Source of the DNA: Acidobacteriota bacterium
Lineage (GTDB): Bacteria; Acidobacteriota; Polarisedimenticolia; SMYD01
NCBI GenBank assembly: GCA_004356015.1
Contig: SMYD01000013.1
Location: 1-42,411 of the forward strand
Direction of reading: 5' to 3'
DNA length: 42,411 bases
Shown: positions 1,667 through 35,539 of the stretch, piece after piece
Position numbering within the stretch: the stretch's first letter is position 1
Layout: each line of letters starts with the position of its first letter
Made by a program: the position numbers and the translations under genes
The notes under the pieces: model-generated
Told to the model about the DNA's origin: nothing
What the model saw: the letters and a program-made list of their open reading frames with translations, nothing else
Databases searched by the model: none

Positions 1667-2068
1667 TCAAGGTCTGAGGCAGGCTTCGGCCCTCCGATCC
1701 CTCAGAACCTCCTCCACCCGGCGCACCAGCAATTCCGCTTCAACAGGCTTGGGAATATAAGCATCGGCACCCAGATCCAGACCTCGCTGGCGATCTTCAT
1801 CGGCGCCCTCAGTCGTGATGATGATGATGGGCAGGTCGCGGGTACGGGCATTGCTCCGTAACAAAGCCACCAGTTTGAGACCATCCATGATGGGCATGTT
1901 GATATCGGTGAGAACAAAATCGATCTCCTCGAACGCCATGCGCCGCAGCGCATCGGCCCCATCCACGGCTTCGATGATGCGGCACTCGGGAAACCTGCGC
2001 AACGAAAAACTGATGAGCTGGCGCATGGTCGGCGAATCCTCCACGATGAGAAATGTCATGGGGCTCAT
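1667..2068 (-). CDS. CheY-like single-domain response regulator
   Basis: VEDSPTMRQ, DFVLTDINMPIMDG (phospho-Asp), IIITTE, ADAYIPKPV (Lys) all present. Confidence 0.9.
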   Translation of the reverse strand: MSPMTFLIVEDSPTMRQLISFSLRRFPECRIIEAVDGADALRRMAFEEIDFVLTDINMPIMDGLKLVALLRSNARTRDLPIIIITTEGADEDRQRGLDLGADAYIPKPVEAELLVRRVEEVLRDRRAEACLRP

Positions 2069-2916
2069 GCGCGCCTCCCTTCCGACTCGTCGACATGAGC
2101 GCCGGCCGGCGAAGCAGCCGGCCCGGCATCGTCGGACACCATCTCAACCTGCAGGAGCAGCTCATGCCAGGCCACGGGCTTGCCATTGGCCCGGCTCAGG
2201 AAGCGGCGGCGAAGGAGAGCGGACATCAGGGCTGTGCCCGCCGTCTCTGCCAGGAGGGTGAAGAGTTCATGATCCTTGGAAGTCAGAGATTTTTTCTGGG
2301 TGAACAGGCTGTGGACCTGGATGACACCCAACAACCTCCCGTCGGCCTTGAGGGGGACACAGGCAACAGGATTTCTGAAGTCGCCCTCCTGCCGGTCACC
2401 GTCGAAGAACGGAATTCCTGTCTTGGCCACCACACCCATGATGCCCGCGCTCAGCGGGATGCTGCGAGGATTATGGCCCTGGCCGCGCTCGCTGGCGACC
2501 TGGCTCAGAGTCTCCCCGTCACGGTTGAGGAGAAAAATGCCGAACTGCCGCGCGCCGACCAGATCCAGAAGAATTTCCGTCATGGAGGTGAGCACCGAGT
2601 CCCATTCCAAGGCTCGATGAAGATTGAAACCGGCCACGTAGAGGTTGGCCAGCAGGTCCTCCTGGACACCCTCGGGCCGGCGCTCTGTAGCCGTCTCCAG
2701 GCGCAGCGACAGATCACGGTTTTTCATCTCCAGCACCTTGACACGCTCCTCCAGAGATCTGGTCTGCGCCACGTCGGCGGCTTCCGGTCGCTGCGGGTCT
2801 TTCCGGAGTTGCAGGTTCTCGCGGGCGATTTCCCCATGGACGTATCTCAGGGTGTCCAGCGCTGCTTCGAACCGGGCATGGTGTGTTCCCTGCCCGTCTT
2901 TTCCCGGATTTCTCAT
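2065..2916 (-). CDS. GAF-domain protein with N-terminal coiled coil, part of the che operon
   Basis: Start refined from ORF 2979 to 2916, where the ATG forms an ATGA overlap with the cheB stop; GAF-like region (WDSVLTSMTEILLDLVGARQFGIFLLN...GVVAKTGIPFF...VPLKADGRLLGVIQVH). Confidence 0.8.
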   Translation of the reverse strand: MRNPGKDGQGTHHARFEAALDTLRYVHGEIARENLQLRKDPQRPEAADVAQTRSLEERVKVLEMKNRDLSLRLETATERRPEGVQEDLLANLYVAGFNLHRALEWDSVLTSMTEILLDLVGARQFGIFLLNRDGETLSQVASERGQGHNPRSIPLSAGIMGVVAKTGIPFFDGDRQEGDFRNPVACVPLKADGRLLGVIQVHSLFTQKKSLTSKDHELFTLLAETAGTALMSALLRRRFLSRANGKPVAWHELLLQVEMVSDDAGPAASPAGAHVDESEGRRA

Positions 2917-4019
2917 GGGTTTCCCTTTCCCTGCTGGAACGGCATCGCCATCACTTCCTCCCCGGGATAAGACCTGCACCCCAGCGTCATGCTCTCCATG
3001 AGCGCGGCCATGGATTCCAGTGGCACGACGCGATCAATCATGCCGGCGCGGATGGCGTTTCCCGGCATTCCGAAGACGATGGCTGAACGTTCAGATTCTG
3101 CCACCGCCAGGCCGCCAGCCGCGGCAAGAGCCGAGATGCCACGGGTGCCATCATGCCCCATCCCCGTAAGAACGATTCCAGCCGCTGCCTCGCCGGCCAC
3201 GCGCGCCGCCGAATCCAGAAGGAGATCCCCGCTGGGCACATGAAGATCGCCCTCCTGCGTCGCCACCACTCTCATCCTGAAGCAACTTCCGGTCATCCCC
3301 TCCACAAGCAAATGCCGCCCGCCGGGAGCCAGAAGAATCTGTCCGGGACGCAACAGGTCGCCGTTTCTCGCCTCCCGTACCGGCAGAGAACAGATCGCAT
3401 CCAGACGACGCGCAAAGGGTCCGGTGAACTCGCCGGGCATATGCTGCACCAGAGCTACCGCAGCCGGAAAATCGGCCGGCAGCCGGGCCAGGATGTGTTG
3501 CAGCGCCTGAGGGCCACCGGTGGAGCTCACCATGGCGATGAGCCGGATTCCATGGCTCACTGCGGGCAGGCTCGCCGGAGGCCGTGGCCTTGGCACCGGG
3601 GCACCCTGAGAAACCAGCCGCTCTACCCGGGGACGTGCATGGCCAATCTGCAGGATCTTGGCCATGAGCTCCTCGCCGATGGACGGAAGGTCCGGGCTGA
3701 CCCGTCCCGGCTTGAGGACGAAATCGAGAGCGCCCAGCTCAAGGGCTTGGAAGAGGCTGTAATTGGACTCCCTGGAAGTGACCACAACAATGGGGAGCGG
3801 CTGTTCCGCCATGACCCAGCGCAGGAGGCTCAGACCGTCCATGCCGGGCATTTCCAGGTCCAGAGTCAGGACATGGGGCTCATGCTGCCGGATCATGCGA
3901 ATGCCCTCCAATCCATCCCGGGCCGCCCCCACGACCTGCAGATCAGGATGTCCGGCCAGCAATCGTGAGAGCGTAGCCCGGTTGTAGGCAGAATCATCGA
4001 TGATCAGAACCCGTGTCAC
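2913..4019 (-). CDS. cheB: Chemotaxis protein-glutamate methylesterase CheB
   Basis: Receiver (VLIIDDSAYNRA, TLDLEMPGMDG, LKPG) plus methylesterase motifs (SSTGGPQALQ, VQHMPGEFTGPFARRLD, TGMGHDGTRG); GTG start overlaps the cheR stop. Confidence 0.95.
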   Translation of the reverse strand: MTRVLIIDDSAYNRATLSRLLAGHPDLQVVGAARDGLEGIRMIRQHEPHVLTLDLEMPGMDGLSLLRWVMAEQPLPIVVVTSRESNYSLFQALELGALDFVLKPGRVSPDLPSIGEELMAKILQIGHARPRVERLVSQGAPVPRPRPPASLPAVSHGIRLIAMVSSTGGPQALQHILARLPADFPAAVALVQHMPGEFTGPFARRLDAICSLPVREARNGDLLRPGQILLAPGGRHLLVEGMTGSCFRMRVVATQEGDLHVPSGDLLLDSAARVAGEAAAGIVLTGMGHDGTRGISALAAAGGLAVAESERSAIVFGMPGNAIRAGMIDRVVPLESMAALMESMTLGCRSYPGEEVMAMPFQQGKGNP

Positions 4020-4876
4020 CGCTCCTCCCGACGATAAGCCACATCGTTGTTCAGGCTGGCGAACTCGAACCGATCCGAGAGATCCAGAAGCGATTCCGAA
4101 TGACCCAGAAGCAGGTAGCCGCCTTCGTTGAGACGGTCATGGAAGAGGTTGATAACCTGGCGCCGCGCCTCCTGATGAAAATAAATGAGAACATTGCGGC
4201 AGAAAATTGCGTCGAATTTGACCAGGGGAAGATCGCCTGCCGGCCCCATGAGATTGCAGCGCCCGAATTGGACCATGCGGCGCACACGTGGCACCACCTG
4301 CATTCTGCCAGCCTCTGCTTCCTGAAAGTACCGTTCCTGGTAGCCGTCAGGCATGGAGCGAAAGGAAAAACGTCCATAGATCCCGCGCCTCGCCTTCTCC
4401 AGAGCTTTACGAGACTGATCCGATCCGAATATTTCCACGGCACCCTCCAGCGATGGATCGGTTTCCAGCACCGCCATGGCCAGTGAGTAGGTTTCTTCCC
4501 CGGTGGCACATCCGGCGCTCCACACGCGGACCCGGGCACCGGGCCGGGCCTTCCGCCGCTCCTGCAGAATCTCCCTGGCAAATGTCCAGATCTGAGATGG
4601 CTCGCGAAAAAAGTACGTTTCATTATTGGCCAGCGTTTCGAAAAGGGCTTCGATCTCAGCCTCGCTCTGTTCGTCATAGAGCAGGCGGTAGTAGTAATCC
4701 TGCAGGTTGTCCAGTCCCAGTTCGGCCATTCGCCGGGCCAGCCGGGCGCGGGCCATTTCACGGAATGAGTCGCGGAAAAGGAACCCGAACCGTCGATTGA
4801 GCAGTTCCAGGATTTGCCGAAGGATGTCGTCGGGTAGCTGGCAGGCTTCCACGGCGTGCCCGGTTGCCGGGGTCAC
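4016..4876 (-). CDS. cheR: Chemotaxis protein methyltransferase CheR
   Basis: SAM-binding VWSAGCATGEETYSLAM; FCRNVLIYFHQEARRQVINLFHDRLNEGGYLLLGHSESL; start refined to GTG 4876 (GTGA overlap with the upstream stop). Confidence 0.95.
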   Translation of the reverse strand: MTPATGHAVEACQLPDDILRQILELLNRRFGFLFRDSFREMARARLARRMAELGLDNLQDYYYRLLYDEQSEAEIEALFETLANNETYFFREPSQIWTFAREILQERRKARPGARVRVWSAGCATGEETYSLAMAVLETDPSLEGAVEIFGSDQSRKALEKARRGIYGRFSFRSMPDGYQERYFQEAEAGRMQVVPRVRRMVQFGRCNLMGPAGDLPLVKFDAIFCRNVLIYFHQEARRQVINLFHDRLNEGGYLLLGHSESLLDLSDRFEFASLNNDVAYRREER

Positions 4877-7083
4877 GTGGTCTCCCCCGGTTCGACGTCG
4901 AGGGTGGCGGAGATCTCCCGGCGGAGGCTCTCCCTGAGGACCGCTGCCAGGCCTTCCCGGACAGCAGGATCTTGAGCCGACGCCCACGCTGCCCGCAGAT
5001 CATCGGAGAACACGGATTGACCCTCTATCAGCAGGGCCGCTGCCGTCTCGGCAACGTCCTTTTCTGCCAGGGCGGACACAAGGTAGGAAAGGGCCGACTC
5101 CGGCTCGGCATGGTACAGGGCGCGCAGCAGCGCTTGCCTGGCCACCGCGTCCCTCTCCCTGTCCATGGCCCGGGCCAGGGGAATGAACGCGCCGGCGTGC
5201 CCCGACTCCCCCAGACTCTCGGCGGCGGCGCAGCGCACGCTCCAGTCCTGGTCCTCCAGGCCCGCCGCCATCATCTCCATGGGTACCGCCTCACCGCCGG
5301 CACCCAGAGCACGCAAGACAGCGCGCCGGATTTCCGGGTCCGGATCCCTGGCCACCTCCTGGAGCACCTCACGGCTCTCCGGCCAGAGCTGTCCCAGGGC
5401 ACAAATTGCGCTGGCGCGCACAGGTGTCGCTTCACGCCGAGCAACCTCCTCCAGGGCAGCCTGCACCTCGACGGCGGCGTGATCCGCCAGGGCCTGGGCA
5501 GCCCGGCAGCGGACCCAGATGGTGCGATCCTGTAAAGCCGCCAGGAGCACCCCCCTGGCGCGGTCGTCACGCAGACGGCCGACCGCCGCAACTGCCTCCT
5601 CACGCACCCTGGCATCCTCATCCGCGAGGGCCACCGTCAAACGCCAGAGCCGTTGCGGATCGGTACTCTCACCGAGCAGTGAAACGGCTGTACGGCGCAC
5701 CGATGGTGCCGGATCGTGAAGGGCCAGATCCAGCGTCTCCGCCGAGCCCTCGCTGCCCAGACCCGCGATGACGGCCAGCGCCGCGCAGCGCATCTCCGCA
5801 CTGGAAGAAGCGGTGAGACCCTCGACCCGGCCGGAAACTTCATCCCTGTTATCGTCGGAAAGAGCCGCCAGGCGGAGAAGACCTTTGACGGCCTCCTGGG
5901 ACACAAGCAGCGACAGGTCCCCCAGCGCCCCCACCAGAGCGTCCAGATCCTCACGCCGCGGCTCAGCAGCCATTGCGGCCGCAGCCGCCTGCCTCACGAT
6001 ATCTTCTTCATGCTCCAGATGGCGGCGCAGAAAGAGATCCACGGCTGAATCACGACGCAAGCCGATGATTTCGACAAGCCTGTGGATGGCATCGGCGGGC
6101 AGAACTGCCTCGGCGGCGACCTTCAGGATTGTCCGTGCGTGCTCCTGGGCCAGGTCGCGCAATGCCTCCACCGCCAGATCAGCCATGAGCGGCTCTGCCA
6201 GGCTCTCCACCATGGCTGGGATAGCGGCTGGGTTGCGGCACCATCCCAGTGTGCGCAGAGCGTACCTTTTGCGATCTCCGTCACTTCGCCCGACCATATC
6301 TTTCAGACCCTGAAACAGGCCTGAACTGGTGACCTCCTGCATCTCTTCAACGATCCGGTTCACCAGGACTTCTCGCGCCCCGCCGATACGGGCGCGCTCC
6401 ACCATCTCGTTGAGAGCAACCAGTGCCGTTCGATCGGGGCAAGGCGTTCCCCCCACCATCGCGTTCACCAGTGGCCCGATGGCAGATTCATCGCCAATGC
6501 GGCCCATGGCTCTCAGAACAGCTTTGCGGTAATACGGTTCATCAACGAGGGGAATAAGCCGGGATACAGCGGCAGCGTGTCCCACCTCCCCCAGAGCGTC
6601 AATGGCGTAGAACATCTGCCAGCGCTCACCGCTGTCCAGCACCGAGAGAAGCGTGGGGACGCAGGAGGGATCTTTCAGCGCACCCAGGCAACTGATGGCC
6701 GCGGCAGCTACCGACGGATCGGCGTGGCGGGCCAGGGGAATGACAACTTCCACCGTCTCACGGCTGGGAATCTTTCCCATGATGACCAGGATCTGGATGG
6801 TGAGGTCCCTCCGGCGCACAGGATCGAGAGCTCGTATGAGCCCGGGAAGCGCTTCCTCCCGGTAGCGCATGAGGACGTCAGCGGCTGAACTGCGCGCCGT
6901 GGCATCCTCCGGGTCAGACAGTGCTGCCAGCAGGCCGGGCATGGTCTCGGCGGGATCGCGCCCGGCCAGACCGGTGATGGCGGCGCGGCGCACTCTCAGG
7001 CTGGAGTGCCCCAGCAGAGCCGTCAATTCTCCCACGCTTTCCTGACCATCCAGGAAAGGGTGCTCTTCCAGATGGGTGCTCAC
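4873..7083 (-). CDS. HEAT-repeat / PBS-lyase-like repeat protein in the che operon
   Basis: 736 aa of tandem ~30-aa helical repeats (VRRAAITGLAGRDP..., DPSVAAAAISCLGALKDPSCVPTLLSVL, DQDWSVRCAAAESLGESGHAGAFIPLARAM). Confidence 0.9.
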   Translation of the reverse strand: MSTHLEEHPFLDGQESVGELTALLGHSSLRVRRAAITGLAGRDPAETMPGLLAALSDPEDATARSSAADVLMRYREEALPGLIRALDPVRRRDLTIQILVIMGKIPSRETVEVVIPLARHADPSVAAAAISCLGALKDPSCVPTLLSVLDSGERWQMFYAIDALGEVGHAAAVSRLIPLVDEPYYRKAVLRAMGRIGDESAIGPLVNAMVGGTPCPDRTALVALNEMVERARIGGAREVLVNRIVEEMQEVTSSGLFQGLKDMVGRSDGDRKRYALRTLGWCRNPAAIPAMVESLAEPLMADLAVEALRDLAQEHARTILKVAAEAVLPADAIHRLVEIIGLRRDSAVDLFLRRHLEHEEDIVRQAAAAAMAAEPRREDLDALVGALGDLSLLVSQEAVKGLLRLAALSDDNRDEVSGRVEGLTASSSAEMRCAALAVIAGLGSEGSAETLDLALHDPAPSVRRTAVSLLGESTDPQRLWRLTVALADEDARVREEAVAAVGRLRDDRARGVLLAALQDRTIWVRCRAAQALADHAAVEVQAALEEVARREATPVRASAICALGQLWPESREVLQEVARDPDPEIRRAVLRALGAGGEAVPMEMMAAGLEDQDWSVRCAAAESLGESGHAGAFIPLARAMDRERDAVARQALLRALYHAEPESALSYLVSALAEKDVAETAAALLIEGQSVFSDDLRAAWASAQDPAVREGLAAVLRESLRREISATLDVEPGETT

Positions 7084-7087
7084 GAGA

Positions 7088-8077
7088 TCACGTGCGCAGG
7101 CCCGCGGGCATCCCCGCAGCAGAACGGTGGCGCTCCACAGCGTCCTTCACCGTCTGGTGGTAAACCTGCCCATGGCCTTCCAGATGGCCGAAGCGCGCGC
7201 GCACCAGTGCCTCCCCCTCACGGATCTCCTGGGCGAACGCCTGCAGGAAGGTTCCGGAGGCCATCACCCCATCGGCCGTATCCGGGTTGTACAGGATGAT
7301 GTCGCCCACCACGATGCGGGCCAGCCGCGTGAGTTCATCCCATTCATCACCATCGGTGTCGGCCACGGACGAAGGCAAGGCCTCGCCTGCCCGGCAGAAT
7401 TGCACAAGCTCTCGATGCATTTCATCCCGCTTCCCGTTGCCGTCCAGAAATCCATCGGCTCCGTAGAGGTCGTCAGGATGGCGCATGAATCGGTCCCGGC
7501 GATAGAGGGATCCGACCAGCAGGACCCGCGTCTGGTTCAGCTGCGGGTGGCGTTTGATCTCCGAGCACAAGGTCACGCCCAGGACATGGGGCAGGAATAC
7601 GTTCAGGACCACCAGCCGCGGAGGCCAGCCGGCCAGGAGGCGGCGTACCTCGAGACCATCCTCGACAGCCTTGACTTGGTACCCTTCATGTTGAAGGCTT
7701 CCTGTGAACAGATCCCGCAACACCGGATCCTGTTCCGCCACCAGAGCCCTGGGCCTGCCGGGGGTATGCCCCGCTCCGTGAACATCTGCAGCCTCTGGTG
7801 CATCGCCATCCTGCTGCCCTGTGGCGGTCTGCGCCTTTGCCCCTGTGGTGTCAACCTCCCGGGGACGAGACAACGCAACCACATGGGAGGACGCCTGGGG
7901 CTCATGGATTCCGGGCACATCCCCGGACGCCGGCTGTAAAGCCGCCGGGATATCGACGCGCATGACCGCTTCGCATGTCCGGCAGCGGATACGCACACCC
8001 TGGCTGCCGAATCTGACGGCGTCATAGCGATAACGTCGACCGCATGTGGGGCAACCGATGAGAACCGTGCCTACCAT
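7088..8077 (-). CDS. Zinc-ribbon (MJ0042-like) plus pseudo-receiver protein
   Basis: N-terminal IGCPTCGRRYRYDAVRFGSQGVRIRCRTCEAVMRV zinc ribbon; receiver-like RALVAEQDPVLRDLF...RLVVLNVFLPHVLG with Asn in place of the acceptor Asp. Confidence 0.8.
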   Translation of the reverse strand: MVGTVLIGCPTCGRRYRYDAVRFGSQGVRIRCRTCEAVMRVDIPAALQPASGDVPGIHEPQASSHVVALSRPREVDTTGAKAQTATGQQDGDAPEAADVHGAGHTPGRPRALVAEQDPVLRDLFTGSLQHEGYQVKAVEDGLEVRRLLAGWPPRLVVLNVFLPHVLGVTLCSEIKRHPQLNQTRVLLVGSLYRRDRFMRHPDDLYGADGFLDGNGKRDEMHRELVQFCRAGEALPSSVADTDGDEWDELTRLARIVVGDIILYNPDTADGVMASGTFLQAFAQEIREGEALVRARFGHLEGHGQVYHQTVKDAVERHRSAAGMPAGLRT

Positions 8078-8086
8078 GACTCCTCC

Positions 8087-8593
8087 TCAGACCTTGAGAA
8101 CAGCTTCGCGGTCCAGGATGATGAGAATCGACTCCTGGCGCGTGTCACAAACCCCGGAAATACCCCGTGCAGCCGCATCAACCAGAGTCGAAGGCGGCGG
8201 TGCGATGCTGTCTACCGGCAACTTCTCCACCTGCAGCACTTCATCCACAAGCAACCCCACCGATTCTTCTCCGTGGCGAAGAACAATGATGCGGGAAGCA
8301 GACCCAATCTCCGCTGCTTCCAGTCCCATGCGAACGCGACCGTCCACCACTGTGATGATGCGCCCGCGCACGGAGATGATGCCGTGAATAACGTCCGCCG
8401 CCTGGGGGATGGGCGTCGCTGAGCGATACTTGAGGATCTCGAGGATCTCCTGGATATCCAGGGCATACCGTTCACCAGCCAGACGGAACGCCAGAACCTG
8501 AAGAACAGGAACCGTGGCGCCCGTTCGCGCCTCGTTCAGGGCCATGTCGTGAGATGGCGCCAAATCGCTGATATTCATGGTTTTCCGGCTCAC
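8087..8593 (-). CDS. cheW: Chemotaxis coupling protein CheW
   Basis: LQVLAFRLAGERYALDIQEILEILKYRSATPIPQAADVIHGIISVRGRIITVVDGRVRMG; ATGA overlap with the cheA stop. Confidence 0.92.
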   Translation of the reverse strand: MSRKTMNISDLAPSHDMALNEARTGATVPVLQVLAFRLAGERYALDIQEILEILKYRSATPIPQAADVIHGIISVRGRIITVVDGRVRMGLEAAEIGSASRIIVLRHGEESVGLLVDEVLQVEKLPVDSIAPPPSTLVDAAARGISGVCDTRQESILIILDREAVLKV

Positions 8594-10623
8594 GGGGAAG
8601 CCTCCGTTTCAAGCCGTGTGCTGCCGAACATGCGCTGAGGCGTGGCTACCAGGGACGCCAGGTCCAGCACCAGTGCGGCCCGGCCACCACCCATCTCCGT
8701 GGCACCTGAGAGTCCCGGCAGGCCATCAAGTAATGAGCCCACCGGTTTGATCACCACCTCATGCTGACCCAGGAGTTCATCCACTCCCATGGCCAGTCGT
8801 CCCCCTCCGACCCGCGCGACCACGATGAACCCGGGTTTGTCATGTTCCCCCATGGGTATGTGCAGAAGCTCACGCAGGTCCGCATAGGGCATGGTTTCGC
8901 CGCGGAGACGCAGGACAGGGCTCTGGGCCACCGTCTCCACACGCTCCTGCTGGTAGCGCAAAGTTTCCGAAATTCCGGACACGGGAATGGCAAAATCCAT
9001 CTCCCCCGAGCGCACGACCATGCAAGGCATGATGGCCAGAGTGATAGGGAGAATAATCTCGACGGTGGTACCGGCGCCTGACTCGCTGAACAGATGCACT
9101 TCGCCACCAAGCTTCTGGAGCTCACTCTTCACCACATCCAGACCGACTCCACGACCGGAAACTTCCCCCACCTGTCCCACCGAACTGAATCCCGCCTGGA
9201 AGACCAACTGCCTGGCGACATCCAGGTTGCATTCGGCGTGCTCCTCGAGCAATCCCCTCCGCACAGCCGCCTGGCGCACAGCCTCCAGATCCAGGCCTCG
9301 CCCGTCATCACTCAGGCTCAGGACGACTTCGTTCCCCCTCTGGACCGCCTTCAAGAGCAGCCGCCCGGTGGGCTCTTTCCCCGCCTGCTCGCGTTCCCGA
9401 GGCGATTCGATCCCGTGGTGAATCGCGTTCCGCACCAGATGGATCAAGGGACTCTGCAGGTGATCCATCATCATCTTGTCCAGCTCGGTGCCCGAGCCTT
9501 CTGTTTCCAGCGTCACGTTCTTGCCCGAGGCACGCGCGAGCTTTCTCACCAGGCGCTTGAGCCTGCCCACAATGCGCGCCACCGGCACCATGCGGGCGCC
9601 GATGACCGAGCACTGCAGATCTTGAAGTTTCTTATCCAGTTCGCCGGATGCCCGATGCAACTCCTGGCCCAGAGAGTGCGTCCCCTCCCCTTCCATGAGT
9701 TCACGGGAGACACCATCCATGCGATGGCGAAACAGGAGGAGTTCACCCACAACATCCATGATCCGGTCCAGGCGCTCCAGGGGAACACGGACGCTGGCCC
9801 GGTCCAGAGATTCGGTAAAGACATGGTCCTCGTCCCCCGTTTCAGCGGGAGTCTCTTCATGGTGGACCGATGTTCCCTCAGCCGGTGATTCATGGACGGT
9901 CACAACCTCGAGACTTGTGTCTTGCGGGAGGCGCACCTCGATGTCGCCTGCAGGGGACCCACTCGCGTAAAGGAGACGAAAGGAAATTCGCGCCTCGGCG
10001 TCATTGGCCGCATAGGACGGCAGGGTACTGATGACCTCCCCACAGTCATTGAGTTGATCAGCCAGGCGCCGCAAATCTGTATCGAAGGTCTCCAGGGGCA
10101 GAGTGACACTCACGAGCCATAACTTGTGCCCGGCGTGAATGTTCGCTTCCAGGCGATGTTCTTCGTAGCGGGTGAGGGAGCGCAGAATATCCTCAGGCAG
10201 AGAGGTGCTGCTGCCAGCGGTGGCCGACTCCTTCTCCTGCCCAACAGCCAGCCTTTTCAGCAGGCCGGCTGACGCCGCCTCAGCATCCTTTCCCGCGGCC
10301 ACCATGGACTCCATGCGTTCATGGGATTCAAACAGGATGTCCAGAGCCGACTCATCCAGGGAGTGCCGACCCATGCGCAGGCCGTCAAGAAAGTCTTCCA
10401 GAACATGGGCCAGCCGGCCAAGGTGATCATGGCCGAAAAGACCGGACAGCCCTTTGAGAGAATGCACGTGGCGAAAAGCAGCGTTGATTCCCTGGGGACG
10501 CACTCTTCCCTGGCGCCTCTCCTTGTCCAGATTCTGCAATTCACGGCCCAGTTCCTCCAGCAGGTCTTCCGCCTCGCTGACGAACTCGCAGCCGTCGGCC
10601 CTCGTATCCTCGCGCCCGGTCAC
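8590..10623 (-). CDS. cheA: Chemotaxis histidine kinase CheA
   Basis: Hpt HVHSLKGLSGLFG; dimerisation domain VPLERLDRIMDVVGELLLF; N box HLVRNAIHHGIE; DDGRGLDL; GRGVGLDVVKSEL; C-terminal CheW-like domain; start refined to GTG 10623. Confidence 0.95.
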   Translation of the reverse strand: MTGREDTRADGCEFVSEAEDLLEELGRELQNLDKERRQGRVRPQGINAAFRHVHSLKGLSGLFGHDHLGRLAHVLEDFLDGLRMGRHSLDESALDILFESHERMESMVAAGKDAEAASAGLLKRLAVGQEKESATAGSSTSLPEDILRSLTRYEEHRLEANIHAGHKLWLVSVTLPLETFDTDLRRLADQLNDCGEVISTLPSYAANDAEARISFRLLYASGSPAGDIEVRLPQDTSLEVVTVHESPAEGTSVHHEETPAETGDEDHVFTESLDRASVRVPLERLDRIMDVVGELLLFRHRMDGVSRELMEGEGTHSLGQELHRASGELDKKLQDLQCSVIGARMVPVARIVGRLKRLVRKLARASGKNVTLETEGSGTELDKMMMDHLQSPLIHLVRNAIHHGIESPREREQAGKEPTGRLLLKAVQRGNEVVLSLSDDGRGLDLEAVRQAAVRRGLLEEHAECNLDVARQLVFQAGFSSVGQVGEVSGRGVGLDVVKSELQKLGGEVHLFSESGAGTTVEIILPITLAIMPCMVVRSGEMDFAIPVSGISETLRYQQERVETVAQSPVLRLRGETMPYADLRELLHIPMGEHDKPGFIVVARVGGGRLAMGVDELLGQHEVVIKPVGSLLDGLPGLSGATEMGGGRAALVLDLASLVATPQRMFGSTRLETEASP

Positions 10624-10624
10624 A

Positions 10625-10996
10625 TCAATCCTCCGCGGGCACCAGCGAGCGCAAGACATCTTCCAGTTCTTCGGGCTGGAACGGCTTGGTCATGTAGGCG
10701 GCAGCACCGGCCGCCAATCCCCTGTCGCGATCCTCCTGGGCCATCTGGGTGGAAATGATGATGACGGGAATTGCACGATACCCCGGGTGAGCCTTGAGGT
10801 AACGCAACAGTTCGAAGCCGTTGATATCCGGCATGTTGATATCGGCGATGATGGCGTCGAAGGCCTGTCCGGGCAGAACTCTGAGAGCTTCAAATCCTGT
10901 ACTCGATTCTGTAACCTCCGCTCCGAAGGCTTTTTCCACGGTCCCGCAGATGAAGGCCCGGGTGGAAGGTGAGTCATCCACAACCAGGATTTTCAT
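10625..10996 (-). CDS. CheY-like response regulator
   Basis: MKILVVDDSPSTRAF, DAIIADINMPDINGFELL, IIISTQ, YMTKPF; start refined to ATG 10996. Confidence 0.92.
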   Translation of the reverse strand: MKILVVDDSPSTRAFICGTVEKAFGAEVTESSTGFEALRVLPGQAFDAIIADINMPDINGFELLRYLKAHPGYRAIPVIIISTQMAQEDRDRGLAAGAAAYMTKPFQPEELEDVLRSLVPAED

Positions 10997-11091
10997 GCTC
11001 CCTCCTCCCGGGCACACAGCGGCCCGATGGCGCACGCGAAGCGGAATATAGGTTCCGGGAAGGCACCCTTCAAACCGACCCTGAGGCGGGT

Positions 11092-12087
11092 TCAGGAGCG
11101 CAGAGCCAGGAGGCCGGACAGAGCCATTCGGGCCGCTCCTGCAAGGGCGATCAGGGGCCGGAGATCGGGCAAGGAACCGCCCTTGGGACCAGAATCCGCA
11201 TAAATGACCGCGATGATGCCGTCAGGCCCGAGGAGGGGAAAAGCAACGGCGTCCCCTTGCGGGGGATCTCCCAGACCGGGTGGCAGCGCCTTCTCAGGTG
11301 GACAGGTCGCACGTTGCAGGCGCGCCGACCAGAAGGCGCGCGACGGCAGGTTGTCTCTGTCCAGCGGGATGTTCTCCTCGTCTCCCACCACATCCGTGCC
11401 GAATCGCCCGAGAACCGTGAGGTGATCCCCGTCAACCTCCATGAGCATGCCGCGGGCGGCCAGGTCGGCCGCCACCCGCATGACCAGGAGCAGAATCGCC
11501 ACGCGATCGCGGGCATGGCAGAGTTCTTCCAGAGCACCCAGCAGCACACTGTCCGCCTGGAGTGGTGCCTGCTGGCTGTTCCGGCCCGAACTGTCCTGCT
11601 CTGCCGCCGGAAGGGGGGCCCCTTCTCCAGGGTCACCAGCCTCATCCTCTCCAGCCACCTGCCGGGCAAAGGCACTGAGGGCATTATCCAGGTGTTCAGG
11701 CTGAATGCGGCGCAAATCGGGCTTGCGGATCACCCGGGTGGCTCCCAGGCTGCGGGCGGCTTGTTCCAGCCAGAGGGCGTCGCTGTTCATGACCGCAACA
11801 ATGGACCGGGTTCCTGCCGGTCGCAATCGTCGCAGAAGATCCAGGCCACCCAGATGACCATTGCCCTCACCAGGCTGAATGAGATCCACGACCAGTGACG
11901 GTCTGCGCCCTTCCTCTTCCAGACGCCGGAACGCAGCCTCAGCCGCCGGCAGGTCGTCACAGCAGATCACGGCGTGGCCACGCTTCTCCAGCCCTCCGGC
12001 CATGGCACGTCGATAAAGCCCCTCGTCATCGACAATGACAACCGGGGTCTGGGCTGGGTAAAGTATCGGTTCCACCGCGCGCTCCAC
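11092..12087 (-). CDS. Receiver plus divergent GAF-like protein
   Basis: VVIVDDEGLYRRAM, PSLVVDLIQPG, VIRKPDL receiver motifs; C-terminal region resembles GAF (SRAFWSARLQRATCPPEK...AVAFPLLGPDGIIAVIYADSG). Confidence 0.7.
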   Translation of the reverse strand: MERAVEPILYPAQTPVVIVDDEGLYRRAMAGGLEKRGHAVICCDDLPAAEAAFRRLEEEGRRPSLVVDLIQPGEGNGHLGGLDLLRRLRPAGTRSIVAVMNSDALWLEQAARSLGATRVIRKPDLRRIQPEHLDNALSAFARQVAGEDEAGDPGEGAPLPAAEQDSSGRNSQQAPLQADSVLLGALEELCHARDRVAILLLVMRVAADLAARGMLMEVDGDHLTVLGRFGTDVVGDEENIPLDRDNLPSRAFWSARLQRATCPPEKALPPGLGDPPQGDAVAFPLLGPDGIIAVIYADSGPKGGSLPDLRPLIALAGAARMALSGLLALRS

Positions 12088-30736: not shown

Positions 30737-30906
30737 CGGTATCCATCCTCCCTGTGGCCCTCCCCATGGCTCTCACCACCACATGCAATCTCGGGGCCAG
30801 GTTCGACTGCGCCATCACAACGCGCCGGAAACTGTATCATTTGCCCCTTCCCGCCCCCAGCCTATATTCGCTCTGTTCCGCCCTCACGCCCGGAAATCGA
30901 GCGACC

Positions 30907-32217
30907 ATGCGCAAAAAACTGGCTCTGGCATTCCTGGCCGTCATCGCCCTGATTCTTGGCGGCAACCTGGCCCTGGATCTGGCCCTTCCCCGGGACACCT
31001 CCTCGGGGCTGACATTCCGTATGCTTGGCCAGGTCAGCCTCATGCTGGCCATTGGCCTCACCGCGGCTCTCCTCCTGGCCCGCAACTTCACCAGGGACCT
31101 GCTGCGCCTGGCCGCCGCGGCACGGGAGATGAGCCGGGGGACCCTGCCGGGGGCCGTTCATATCAAGTCCCGGGACGAAGTGGGTGACCTTGCCCGGGCG
31201 TTCAACGACATGGGAGCCGCACTGCGGGCCGCTCTCTGCGAGATCCAGCGCAGCGCAGAACAGATGGCGGAGGCTGCTCTTCTTCAGTCCGGCGGCAGCC
31301 GGGAACTGGATCAGGGCACGGAAGAGATCGCCCGTCTTTCCCGGGAGATCTCACGCGGCGCCGATCAGCAGGCCGACGGCTCCCGCCGGACCTCAGCCAT
31401 AGCCCGCCAGCTGGCGACCTCCCTGGCCGAGGCCGCAACCAGTTGCCATGAAACAGCCCGGGCCGCCGAGAAAGCCCGCGAAGGGGCGGTGACCGGGGTC
31501 GACTCCGCCCGCCAATCGGCGGAGAGTCTGCTTGCCGTCGCGTCATCCAGCGAGCGCTCACGCCTGAGCGTCGAATCGTTCCACGCCAGCGCCGAGGAGA
31601 TCGAGCAAATCGTCGATTTCATCCGGGGCGTGGCACGACAGACTGAGGTCCTGGCGCTGAACGCGACCATCGAGGCGGCCAAGGCCGGGGATGAAGGGTA
31701 CGGCTTCGCCGCCGTGGCCGAGGAGATCCGGGGACTGGCGGATCGCACCGCTCAGTTCAGCCATCGCATCCACGGATTGGTCCGCGCCATCACCCGGCGT
31801 GCCGCGGACGTGGCCAGAACCATGGAGGAGGGCGGCCGGGTGGCGGCCCAGGGCCGGGAAACAGCCCTCCATGCCCGCACGACGCTCGAACAAAACCGCG
31901 CCATATTTGCACAGGTTGTGCGAGCCGTTGACAAGGTGGCATCCGTGACCTCGGAGCAGAGTCTGAATGCGGAAAGACTCGCCGCCGACATGGAGGAGAT
32001 GGCCGCCATCGCCCGCGACCAGGCGGAGAGGACGGAACGCACCTCCGCTGCCGTCAGCGAACAGAAGATCTCCACCCAGGGGATGTCCCAGGCGGCCCAG
32101 ACCCTGGCCGACTCCGCCCGCCTGCTGCGCGAGAAGGCCGGCCGGTTCCAGACCGTGCAGACCATCAGGGATCACGGCGAGGACCCCGTCAAACAGACAA
32201 TCGTGGATCGCCCATGA
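30907..32217 (+). CDS. Methyl-accepting chemotaxis protein with minimal extracytoplasmic loop
   Basis: Two TM segments with a short connector, HAMP (RNFTRDLLRLAAAAREMSRGTLPGAVHIKSRDEVGDLARAFNDMGAAL), signalling tip QTEVLALNATIEAAKAGDEGYGFAAVAEEIRGLADR; ATG refined to 30907. Confidence 0.9.
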   Translation: MRKKLALAFLAVIALILGGNLALDLALPRDTSSGLTFRMLGQVSLMLAIGLTAALLLARNFTRDLLRLAAAAREMSRGTLPGAVHIKSRDEVGDLARAFNDMGAALRAALCEIQRSAEQMAEAALLQSGGSRELDQGTEEIARLSREISRGADQQADGSRRTSAIARQLATSLAEAATSCHETARAAEKAREGAVTGVDSARQSAESLLAVASSSERSRLSVESFHASAEEIEQIVDFIRGVARQTEVLALNATIEAAKAGDEGYGFAAVAEEIRGLADRTAQFSHRIHGLVRAITRRAADVARTMEEGGRVAAQGRETALHARTTLEQNRAIFAQVVRAVDKVASVTSEQSLNAERLAADMEEMAAIARDQAERTERTSAAVSEQKISTQGMSQAAQTLADSARLLREKAGRFQTVQTIRDHGEDPVKQTIVDRP

Positions 32218-32684
32218 ACACGGCCCACCTCCTGTTTCCCCAGGCTGATTTTTTTCTCTCTCTGCCGGCCGACCGAATCCAGCGCATTCAGGAGGCCGGA
32301 TCGGTCGTGCCCTTCCCCGGCGCCGGTGGTGCTGTCCGGGGCCTGTCGGTCTGTGGAGGAAGAAGCCGCATCGTCCTGAACCTGCCGGGCCTGCTCCCGC
32401 CCGGCGCTGCGGGAAGCGACATGATCCTGGCCGATGGACCGCCTCTCTGGGTCCTTCTGGAAGGCGAAGCCGACGGCCTGGTTCTCGAGATCCAGGCGCC
32501 GCTCTCCTTCTCCACACCCGTGGCGAAGGCGCCGCGGCCAACCGGGACCATGGTGATTTGTGACCGTGGTGAGCGCCATTCCGCCGGGGTCGCGGGCCTG
32601 ATCTCGACCCGGCGATTGCTGGTTTCATTCCGCCGCACAGCCGGTTCCCTGACCGCCATCCCTCCCTCCGGTGGGACGCGGTGA
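32214..32684 (+). CDS. Divergent CheW-like protein
   Basis: Between MCP and CheA genes with ATGA/TGATG overlaps; faint CheW pattern (FFLSLPADRIQRIQEAGSVVPFPGAGGAVRGL); most CheW residues not conserved. Confidence 0.6.
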   Translation: MNTAHLLFPQADFFLSLPADRIQRIQEAGSVVPFPGAGGAVRGLSVCGGRSRIVLNLPGLLPPGAAGSDMILADGPPLWVLLEGEADGLVLEIQAPLSFSTPVAKAPRPTGTMVICDRGERHSAGVAGLISTRRLLVSFRRTAGSLTAIPPSGGTR

Positions 32685-34216
32685 TGACCCACTCCGATCG
32701 GTACATGGCGCTCTTCCTGGAGGAGAGCCGCGATCTCCTGCGGCAGGGAGAAGAGTGCCTGCTCGACCTGGAGAAAAATCCGGATCTCTGCAGCACAGCG
32801 CCGTTGAACCGTATCTGGCACAGCATCAAAGGCATGGCGGCAGCACTGGATCTGGAAGACCTGGTCACCCTGGCCCACGCCGCGGAGGAAGGTCTCCCGT
32901 CACCGGATCTGTCTCCGGAGCAACGCCACACTGCTCTGGACCGCCAGGGCCAGGCCATGCAGACAGCCGCCCGCCTCCTGGCGGCGTTGCAGGACGGCCG
33001 GCCCGCCCCGGCCCCTCTGGTCAGCTCAGCGCCAGTCCCGGCGCCACGTGTGCCCGAGACGCTGCGGGTCGCGGTGCGGGAACTGGACGCGCTTCTGGCC
33101 GACGTGGTGGACCTGGAAGGATCACTGGCTGCCGGCGACGACCTGGCCGGTGCCGCCGGCCAGGATGACGCCACGCTCCCGACGACCCGGTGCCTGGCAC
33201 GCATGCGGCACAGACTTGCCCGCCTGCGCCACCTGCCGTTTTCCACCATCGTCCCCTCCCTGGAGAGTCTGGTGCTGACCGGCGCCCGCCAACTGGAAAG
33301 CCGGGCCCATCTCGAGGTCCTTGGCGCCGAGCACCGGCTGGAACGGGGAACCCTGGAACTCCTGGCCGAGATTCTCCCCCACCTGCTGCGCAACGCCCTG
33401 GCTCATGGCATCGAGCCTGAGGCCGTGCGCCGCCGGGCCCGCAAGCCTGAAAGTGGCCTGCTGCGCATCCTTATCCAGCCGCGACGGGGCCGCGTGCGTA
33501 TCGTGGTGGAAGATGATGGTCGCGGTGTCGACCTGAACGCCCTGCAAACAGCCGTTGGCGCATCGACCGGGGAGGGCCGGGCCCTGATGCGGCCGGGTGC
33601 GGACCTTGCTCCGGTACTCTGCCGTCCCGGATTCTCCACCGCGCGGACCACGAATACGGTGGCGGGGCGGGGCACCGGTCTTGATGCGGTCCGCGAGCGC
33701 CTGGCGCTGGCCGGCGGCGGAATGAGCATTCGCCGGCGGAGTCAACATGGAACCCGTGTCATGCTCGAAGTCCCGGCCACCCTGGCCGTCACCACCTGTC
33801 TGGTGGCCCGGATCGGACACAACCACCTGGGATTCCCTCTCCCCGGCATCTGCGGGCTGGAGGTCATTCCCGCCGGCACCACGGCAAGCGGCGGACCTCT
33901 GGAACGCCTCCTGGCCGGCTCGCCCGCGCGGCCGCCGGCTGAATATGCCCTGGAGTTGTCCCTCCGCGGGCAGGGCGGCCACACCTACCATCTCCAGGTG
34001 GACCAGATCATGGGGCGCATGGAGGCTGTGGTCCAGCCCCTTTCGGGTCTGAAGACAGGCAGCGCGATCCTGGGTACCGCGGTGTGGAAGGCCGCAGTCC
34101 CCGTCCTCATCCTGGACCCGGCGATTCTCTTCCTCCACCTGCCCCGGCCATGGGCCGGCGACCAGGATGACAGCGCGGGTGGTCTCCCTACAGGTGCTTC
34201 TCCAGCAGCCGGCTGA
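32684..34216 (+). CDS. Short CheA-type histidine kinase (P1-P3-P4-P5, no obvious P2)
   Basis: Hpt IWHSIKGMAAALDL, N box HLLRNALAHGIE, VVEDDGRGVDL, CRPGFSTA, GRGTGLDAVRERL, P5-like C terminus. Confidence 0.88.
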   Translation: MTHSDRYMALFLEESRDLLRQGEECLLDLEKNPDLCSTAPLNRIWHSIKGMAAALDLEDLVTLAHAAEEGLPSPDLSPEQRHTALDRQGQAMQTAARLLAALQDGRPAPAPLVSSAPVPAPRVPETLRVAVRELDALLADVVDLEGSLAAGDDLAGAAGQDDATLPTTRCLARMRHRLARLRHLPFSTIVPSLESLVLTGARQLESRAHLEVLGAEHRLERGTLELLAEILPHLLRNALAHGIEPEAVRRRARKPESGLLRILIQPRRGRVRIVVEDDGRGVDLNALQTAVGASTGEGRALMRPGADLAPVLCRPGFSTARTTNTVAGRGTGLDAVRERLALAGGGMSIRRRSQHGTRVMLEVPATLAVTTCLVARIGHNHLGFPLPGICGLEVIPAGTTASGGPLERLLAGSPARPPAEYALELSLRGQGGHTYHLQVDQIMGRMEAVVQPLSGLKTGSAILGTAVWKAAVPVLILDPAILFLHLPRPWAGDQDDSAGGLPTGASPAAG

Positions 34217-34663: not shown

Positions 34664-35539
34664 ATGCCGGGAAGATTGATGGAGGACCGGGGAGCGAGAG
34701 ATGTGCCAGGCCGGGCGCCGACCCGGCGCCAGACGGCCGCCCGGCGCCATCGCCTGGGGCAGCATTTTCTCAAGGATCAAAGGGTCATCCAGGCAATCCT
34801 GGCGGCGTTCGCTCCCGGGGCAGGGGATCGTGTGCTGGAGGTCGGACCCGGGCGTGGTGCTCTGACCGAACCTCTGGCGCTCCGGGTCGCGACGTTTGTG
34901 GCCGTGGAACGTGACGCCTCTCTGGCCACGGTTCTTCAGCAACGCTACCAGCAGGAGGCAGACGTCACCATCCTGGAGGGCGACATTCTGGAGATCGATC
35001 TGGAGGCGGAACTGACGGGCGCCGCCGGCGGGCCGGCACGATTCAGGTTGCTGGGAAACCTGCCATACAGCATCGCCACCCCGCTCCTGGTGCAGACCCT
35101 CGCCCGGGCCGATCTCTTCTCCGACATGACCATCATGGTTCAGCGGGAAGTCGCCCGGCGCATGCTGGCGCCGACCGGTACAGCCGACTATGGCCCCCTG
35201 GCCGTCCTTGTAGCCCTCAGGTCGACAGACGCGCGTCTGGTCAGGGATGTCCCCCCCGGCGCCTTCGTACCTCCCCCGGATGTGCATTCCAGCGTGGTCC
35301 AGCTCGACCTTCCGGCGCACGCCGCCACCGACGACACAGCCATGGGGATCGCCCTGGCCAGGCAGGCCTTCCTGCAGCGCCGCAAGAAACTGGTCAACAC
35401 CCTGGGCGGAACTGCACCCCGCCTGGTCGCCGGCGCCATGGCCTCGCTGGGCCTGGCGCCCCGGGTGCGGCCGGAACAGGTCGCACCGGAAGATTACGTG
35501 CGTCTCGCGCGCTGCCTCGGACAGGAGGATAACCCGTGA
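34664..35539 (+). CDS. rsmA: 16S rRNA (adenine1518/1519-N6)-dimethyltransferase RsmA/KsgA
   Basis: RLGQHFLKDQRVIQAIL, VLEVGPGRGALTEPL, VAVERDASLA, LLGNLPYSIATPLL, MVQREVARRMLA. Confidence 0.94.
   Translation: MPGRLMEDRGARDVPGRAPTRRQTAARRHRLGQHFLKDQRVIQAILAAFAPGAGDRVLEVGPGRGALTEPLALRVATFVAVERDASLATVLQQRYQQEADVTILEGDILEIDLEAELTGAAGGPARFRLLGNLPYSIATPLLVQTLARADLFSDMTIMVQREVARRMLAPTGTADYGPLAVLVALRSTDARLVRDVPPGAFVPPPDVHSSVVQLDLPAHAATDDTAMGIALARQAFLQRRKKLVNTLGGTAPRLVAGAMASLGLAPRVRPEQVAPEDYVRLARCLGQEDNP

Follow-up and report, generated by a model that had tools for sequence, protein, structure and literature searches.

The locus raises two questions: how a full set of chemosensory enzymes encoded without a receptor obtains its input, and which cellular process it controls. 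The window, meaning the whole stretch of 42,411 nucleotides of Acidobacteriota DNA analysed here, contains an operon of nine minus-strand genes, transcribed from position 11035 to 1667 in the order cheY1-cheA-cheW-ZnR/pseudoREC-HEAT-cheR-cheB-GAF-cheY2, and the Pfam scan found no MCP among the nine. A first-pass annotation had proposed this order and place, and both hold, since all nine reading frames lie on the minus strand and Pfam confirmed the domains named for them. That annotation overlooked a tenth gene at 11092-12087, a second chemosensory module at 30754-34216 and the three other MCPs of the genome.

The enzymatic core begins with cheY1 (10625..11035, although the start may be 10996; Pfam REC 4.7e-25) and cheA (8590..10659), identified by Pfam and the tree, whose product carries Hpt, dimerisation (H-kinase_dim), ATPase (HATPase) and CheW-like domains. 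The cheA start is probably at about 10623, because the corresponding frame of the sister genome begins there and a TGA of the sister falls inside the longer reading. CheW is encoded at 8087..8593 (Pfam 1.5e-33), and a four-domain CheA with a CheW is the Pfam domain content required of a chemosensory pathway in general. The methylation enzymes are encoded by cheR (4016..4987; CheR_N and CheR, Pfam 3.5e-58), whose start is probably at about 4876, right where the HEAT frame stops, since the open frame of the sister begins there, and by cheB (2913..4019; REC plus methylesterase, Pfam 6e-60, with NCBIfam NF001965 over its cut-off). The last gene is cheY2 (1667..2068; Pfam 2.4e-26). Inspection by eye showed that the signature residues are kept, including the Hpt histidine and ATP-binding boxes of CheA, the GCATGEE motif of CheR and the Ser, His and Asp motifs of CheB, and the best sequence match of CheA among solved structures is 6s1k. 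Both CheYs are single-domain proteins in Pfam, with no output domain and with catalytic residues intact in the alignment. Of the six operon proteins compared, CheY2 has the highest identity to distant orthologues (62-68%), while CheY1 reaches 43-55% and the ZnR, HEAT and GAF proteins 19-35%.

These last three are the extra members of the operon. The ZnR-pseudoREC protein (7088..8077) consists of a Cys4 zinc ribbon, a receiver and a conserved C-terminal segment; Pfam detects the receiver at 41 bits and the zinc ribbon under its cut-off. In the alignment the phospho-acceptor Asp is gone from all 19 orthologues (Asn in 17, Ser in one and Glu in one), and the zinc-ribbon cysteines are retained in 18 of the 19. 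A structure model of ZnR, built from two sequences, was too poor to use (pLDDT 44) and was discarded. The HEAT protein (4873..7083, 736 aa, eight Pfam HEAT_2 matches) has orthologues of about 740 aa and can be aligned over its full length to the distant ones at roughly 19-29% identity; its AF2 model is an all-helical solenoid (pLDDT 78). A fold search of this model against the PDB names no partner, because the best 50 matches were solenoids of the HEAT type, none of which had a query TM-score above 0.37. The GAF protein (2065..2979; Pfam GAF_2 3.7e-13) has an N-terminus that looks coiled-coil-like by eye.

The annotation had suggested a neighbourhood search as a check, and the gene order proved to be conserved in relatives. 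A CheA search over 396 Acidobacteriota genomes found a match at 1e-60 in 176 of them, and 40 neighbourhoods, for the most part around the stronger hits, were compared after their genes had been assigned by means of sequences and profiles made for this analysis. The HEAT gene occurs in 16 other genomes, and the HEAT-bearing versions span 11 families including the window's own; among named records an Acidobacteria MAG comes closest, its HEAT protein being 88% identical. A full order of 12 genes, nusB-(DUF4388/REC/GAF)-cheY1-cheA-ATPase-cheW-ZnR-HEAT-cheR-cheB-GAF-cheY2, was found in three loci (L049, L055 and L056). In the window and in all 16 other HEAT-bearing loci HEAT stands immediately before cheR. 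An apparent CheR-HEAT fusion in one locus (L068) was rejected, since the CheR match lay only at the end of a long frame overlapping the HEAT frame. Families f14 and f39 have the operon split into two loci, with the cheW-ZnR-HEAT-cheR-cheB block intact away from cheA and, in L102, GAF-cheY2 joined to it. In family f3, which belongs to the same class as the window genome, the operons (L067 and L070-L074) lack HEAT, cheR and the receiver of CheB all at once: CheB there is short, with the esterase domain and no receiver, and CheR is encoded elsewhere, outside the operon. Against the sister genome, dN/dS was 0.07-0.25 over the operon genes, which indicates purifying selection on each of them. The cluster is not a chance arrangement, because other families show its order again and purifying selection acts on all of its genes; it is a real, conserved variant of the chemosensory pathway. 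The open-access papers searched contain no description of it, and the variant is apparently undescribed before.

The gene at 11092..12087 (minus strand) is the tenth member of the cluster. It encodes a degenerate receiver (Pfam REC 23 bits, under cut-off) with a GAF-like tail, and its position beside cheY1 is conserved in relatives. Its counterpart in the nine relatives scanned is a DUF4388-REC-GAF protein or similar, and DUF4388 is absent from this gene in the window and the sister. In one relative (L058:11671-13383) the upstream DUF4388-REC protein contains an MshE-type c-di-GMP-binding motif over the NCBIfam cut-off. Relatives also have, between cheA and cheW, a gene for an AAA_22 ATPase, nearest in NCBIfam to the XrtA-associated ATPase but under cut-off. 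The window operon does not have this gene, and a relative's copy used as query had no match in the window genome, the sister or four f3 genomes. Judging from these comparisons, the window lineage has lost both the DUF4388 domain and the ATPase.

With regard to input, the claim that CheR and CheB imply a receptor encoded elsewhere is borne out. The genome (2.73 Mb in 196 contigs, estimated 92% complete, the window being contig C80) has four MCP genes, one at 30754-32217 of the window and one on each of contigs C122, C65 and C29, and none of them adjoins the operon. The absence of an MCP holds for the operon and not for the window. Around the MCPs of C122, C65 and C29, the MCP alone of the query set matched, with no operon protein beside it. 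A CheW-domain search of the genome returned one CheW and one CheA C-terminal domain, both in the operon, and the single CheR that exceeds the Pfam cut-off is also the operon's. Since these are the sole matches, the operon is the main recognisable chemosensory core of the genome, with receptor genes in trans. In the CheA tree the nusB-linked CheAs, including the window's, form one clade apart from the MCP-linked CheAs (100/99).

With regard to output, we favour a complete chemosensory core with receptors in trans that most likely acts on a type IV pilus motor rather than on a flagellum, a reading to which we give a probability of about 0.6. FlhA, used as a single marker, had no match in the window genome, which is about 92% complete, and of the 26 genomes that encode this type of CheA, 21 are without it (the window genome, the sister and 19 others). 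PilT, likewise a single marker, is present in the window genome and in all 26, but this is weak evidence for a pilus output, because 335 of the 396 sampled Acidobacteriota (85%) have PilT. The location of receptors in relatives is stronger evidence. In five genomes (G067, G079, G246, G295 and G064) pilB-pilT-pilC has an MCP no more than about 10 kb away, and in the first four a second cheW stands next to that MCP; the domains were confirmed for G067, and the other four were judged by sequence likeness. The linkage occurs in four of the five f34 genomes (G267 is without it) and in G064, and not in the window genome; the loci concerned are L090-L094, of which L094 belongs to G064. Given the handful of MCPs per genome, such placement near pil genes by chance should be rare. 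The upstream gene of relatives contributes DUF4388, which we take to be PATAN, a domain carried by regulators of the cyanobacterial pilus. In Synechocystis, PilB1 is an interaction partner of PATAN regulators (PMC12288463, PMC7690835). Our search of the open-access literature turned up no relevant paper on DUF4388 together with type IV pili.

The same upstream gene is also an argument for an alternative cellular function, in which the pathway would control a process other than motility, such as the level of a second messenger, matrix or development. In relatives it encodes a regulator with several domains, DUF4388-REC-GAF, and such pathways are marked by multidomain regulators (PMC3447774). 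The first-pass annotation preferred this interpretation to a flagellar one; its non-flagellar part stands, with FlhA unmatched in the genome, while the alternative function itself is weakened by two CheYs that are single-domain and catalytically intact, by PilT in a genome with no FlhA match, and by the MCP found in the pil locus of five relatives, in four of them with the second cheW. We regard it as rather unlikely. On present sequence comparisons control of a type IV pilus seems likelier, because FlhA is absent, PilT is present, an MCP stands beside pil genes in five relatives and DUF4388 is encoded upstream in relatives.

The second module of the window has to be considered in the same context. 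It consists of three plus-strand genes, beginning with the MCP at 30754..32217 (HAMP and MCPsignal in Pfam; conserved in the sister, L108), followed by a divergent, presumably CheW-like protein at 32214..32684, which has no Pfam match and occupies the place of cheW in L109-L114, and by a compact divergent CheA at 32681..34216 with Hpt and HATPase and no CheW-domain match. This kinase matches NCBIfam CheA_Halo at 2.5e-44, under cut-off, and in the tree it groups with the MCP-linked CheAs of second systems (100/99) on a very long branch of 4.18. The matching system in L109-L114 is cheR-MCP-cheW-cheY-cheA, and a KsgA-like gene lies downstream of it in L109, as at 34664-35539 of the window. By its gene content the module looks like a reduced relative of this system of other families, and as it is without the cheR and cheY of its relatives, it may depend on the enzymes of the operon. 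Its MCP is a possible receptor for the operon. One could go further and consider operon and module a single cross-wired pathway, in which the module gives a receptor and a second kinase and the operon gives CheR, CheB and the CheYs. The single CheR over cut-off in the genome and the purifying selection on both sets (dN/dS 0.07-0.27 against the sister over the genes of operon and module together) agree with this view, which is compatible with a pilus output. However, the two CheAs are distantly related, as the long branch of the module kinase illustrates, and the genome has three further MCPs, so that such cross-wiring is in our opinion unlikely.

The annotation had also placed the HEAT, ZnR and GAF proteins in the stead of an MCP, which would mean that they replace the receptor and that CheA and CheW signal without MCPs. 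Neither the sister nor any of the HEAT-bearing clusters has an MCP immediately linked to the operon, in agreement with the annotation's view of it as receptor-less, nor was one found inside any examined cluster of the nusB-linked CheA clade, and GAF is a common sensory domain. Nevertheless, this substitution is unsupported and quite improbable, as at least one MCP is encoded in each of the 26 genomes whose CheA is of this type, and MCPs are the targets of CheR and CheB in the characterised pathways that we know of. Ordinary flagellar chemotaxis with dispersed receptors, although it uses the same core enzymes and FlhA does occur in five of the 26 genomes, is largely refuted by the absence of FlhA from the window genome, the sister and the 19 others, and is very improbable.

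Under the favoured pilus output, CheA and CheW would couple to the dispersed MCPs, whose methylation would be set by CheR and CheB, and CheA would phosphorylate both single-domain CheYs. CheY1 and CheY2 may form a working pair comparable to PixG/PixH or to PilG/PilH, the opposing CheYs known in Pil-Chp (PMC10519157). For the three extra proteins we propose roles as hypotheses. HEAT is most likely a solenoid scaffold that would keep CheR, and possibly CheB as well, in place at the array or the cell pole, ZnR could be a pseudoreceiver adaptor that works independently of phosphorylation, and the GAF protein may be an accessory factor for input or localisation. More tentatively, and as a possibility on the doubtful side, the operon could represent a distinct chemosensory class found across Acidobacteriota, in which the methylation enzymes are organised by the HEAT solenoid and the dead zinc-ribbon receiver serves, independently of phosphorylation, as a switch or adaptor from CheA to the pilus motor. 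Acidobacteriota occur widely and are poorly cultured. With its three standing extra members, this conserved operon offers a defined set of proteins for testing the scaffolding of chemosensory arrays as well as the coupling of chemosensory signalling to a non-flagellar output.

The operon can be compared with several known systems. With pathways of alternative cellular function such as Wsp it shares a non-flagellar set of chemosensory enzymes, but Wsp uses a REC-GGDEF regulator (PMC3447774), unlike CheY1 and CheY2, which have no output domain. A search of the open-access literature for HEAT repeats together with cheW found nothing relevant; a HEAT_PBS protein encoded in the che region of Halobacterium, OE2401F, couples Che signalling to the motor and is required for switching (PMC2666748). 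Both are HEAT-repeat proteins encoded with che genes, a likeness for which we do not claim orthology. The homologues of OE2401F adjoin CheF (DUF439), a family without a match among the operon genes in the Pfam scan, whereas the operon HEAT adjoins cheR. Cyanobacterial Tax/Pix phototaxis, with its paired opposing regulators, is a possible model for CheY1 and CheY2, and the DUF4388-REC-GAF gene upstream in relatives would be the counterpart of a PATAN-REC regulator if DUF4388 is indeed PATAN; unlike Tax/Pix, the upstream gene of the window has no DUF4388 and the operon cluster has no photoreceptor MCP. The Pil-Chp system of Pseudomonas aeruginosa differs in that neither the operon nor the HEAT-bearing clusters of relatives include a PilJ-type MCP, that the operon carries the extra HEAT, ZnR-pseudoREC and GAF genes, and that one Hpt was detected in its CheA, whereas ChpA carries several. 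What the operon shares with Pil-Chp is CheA, CheW, CheR, CheB and two single-domain CheYs, in the similar setting of a genome that has no FlhA match and encodes PilT.
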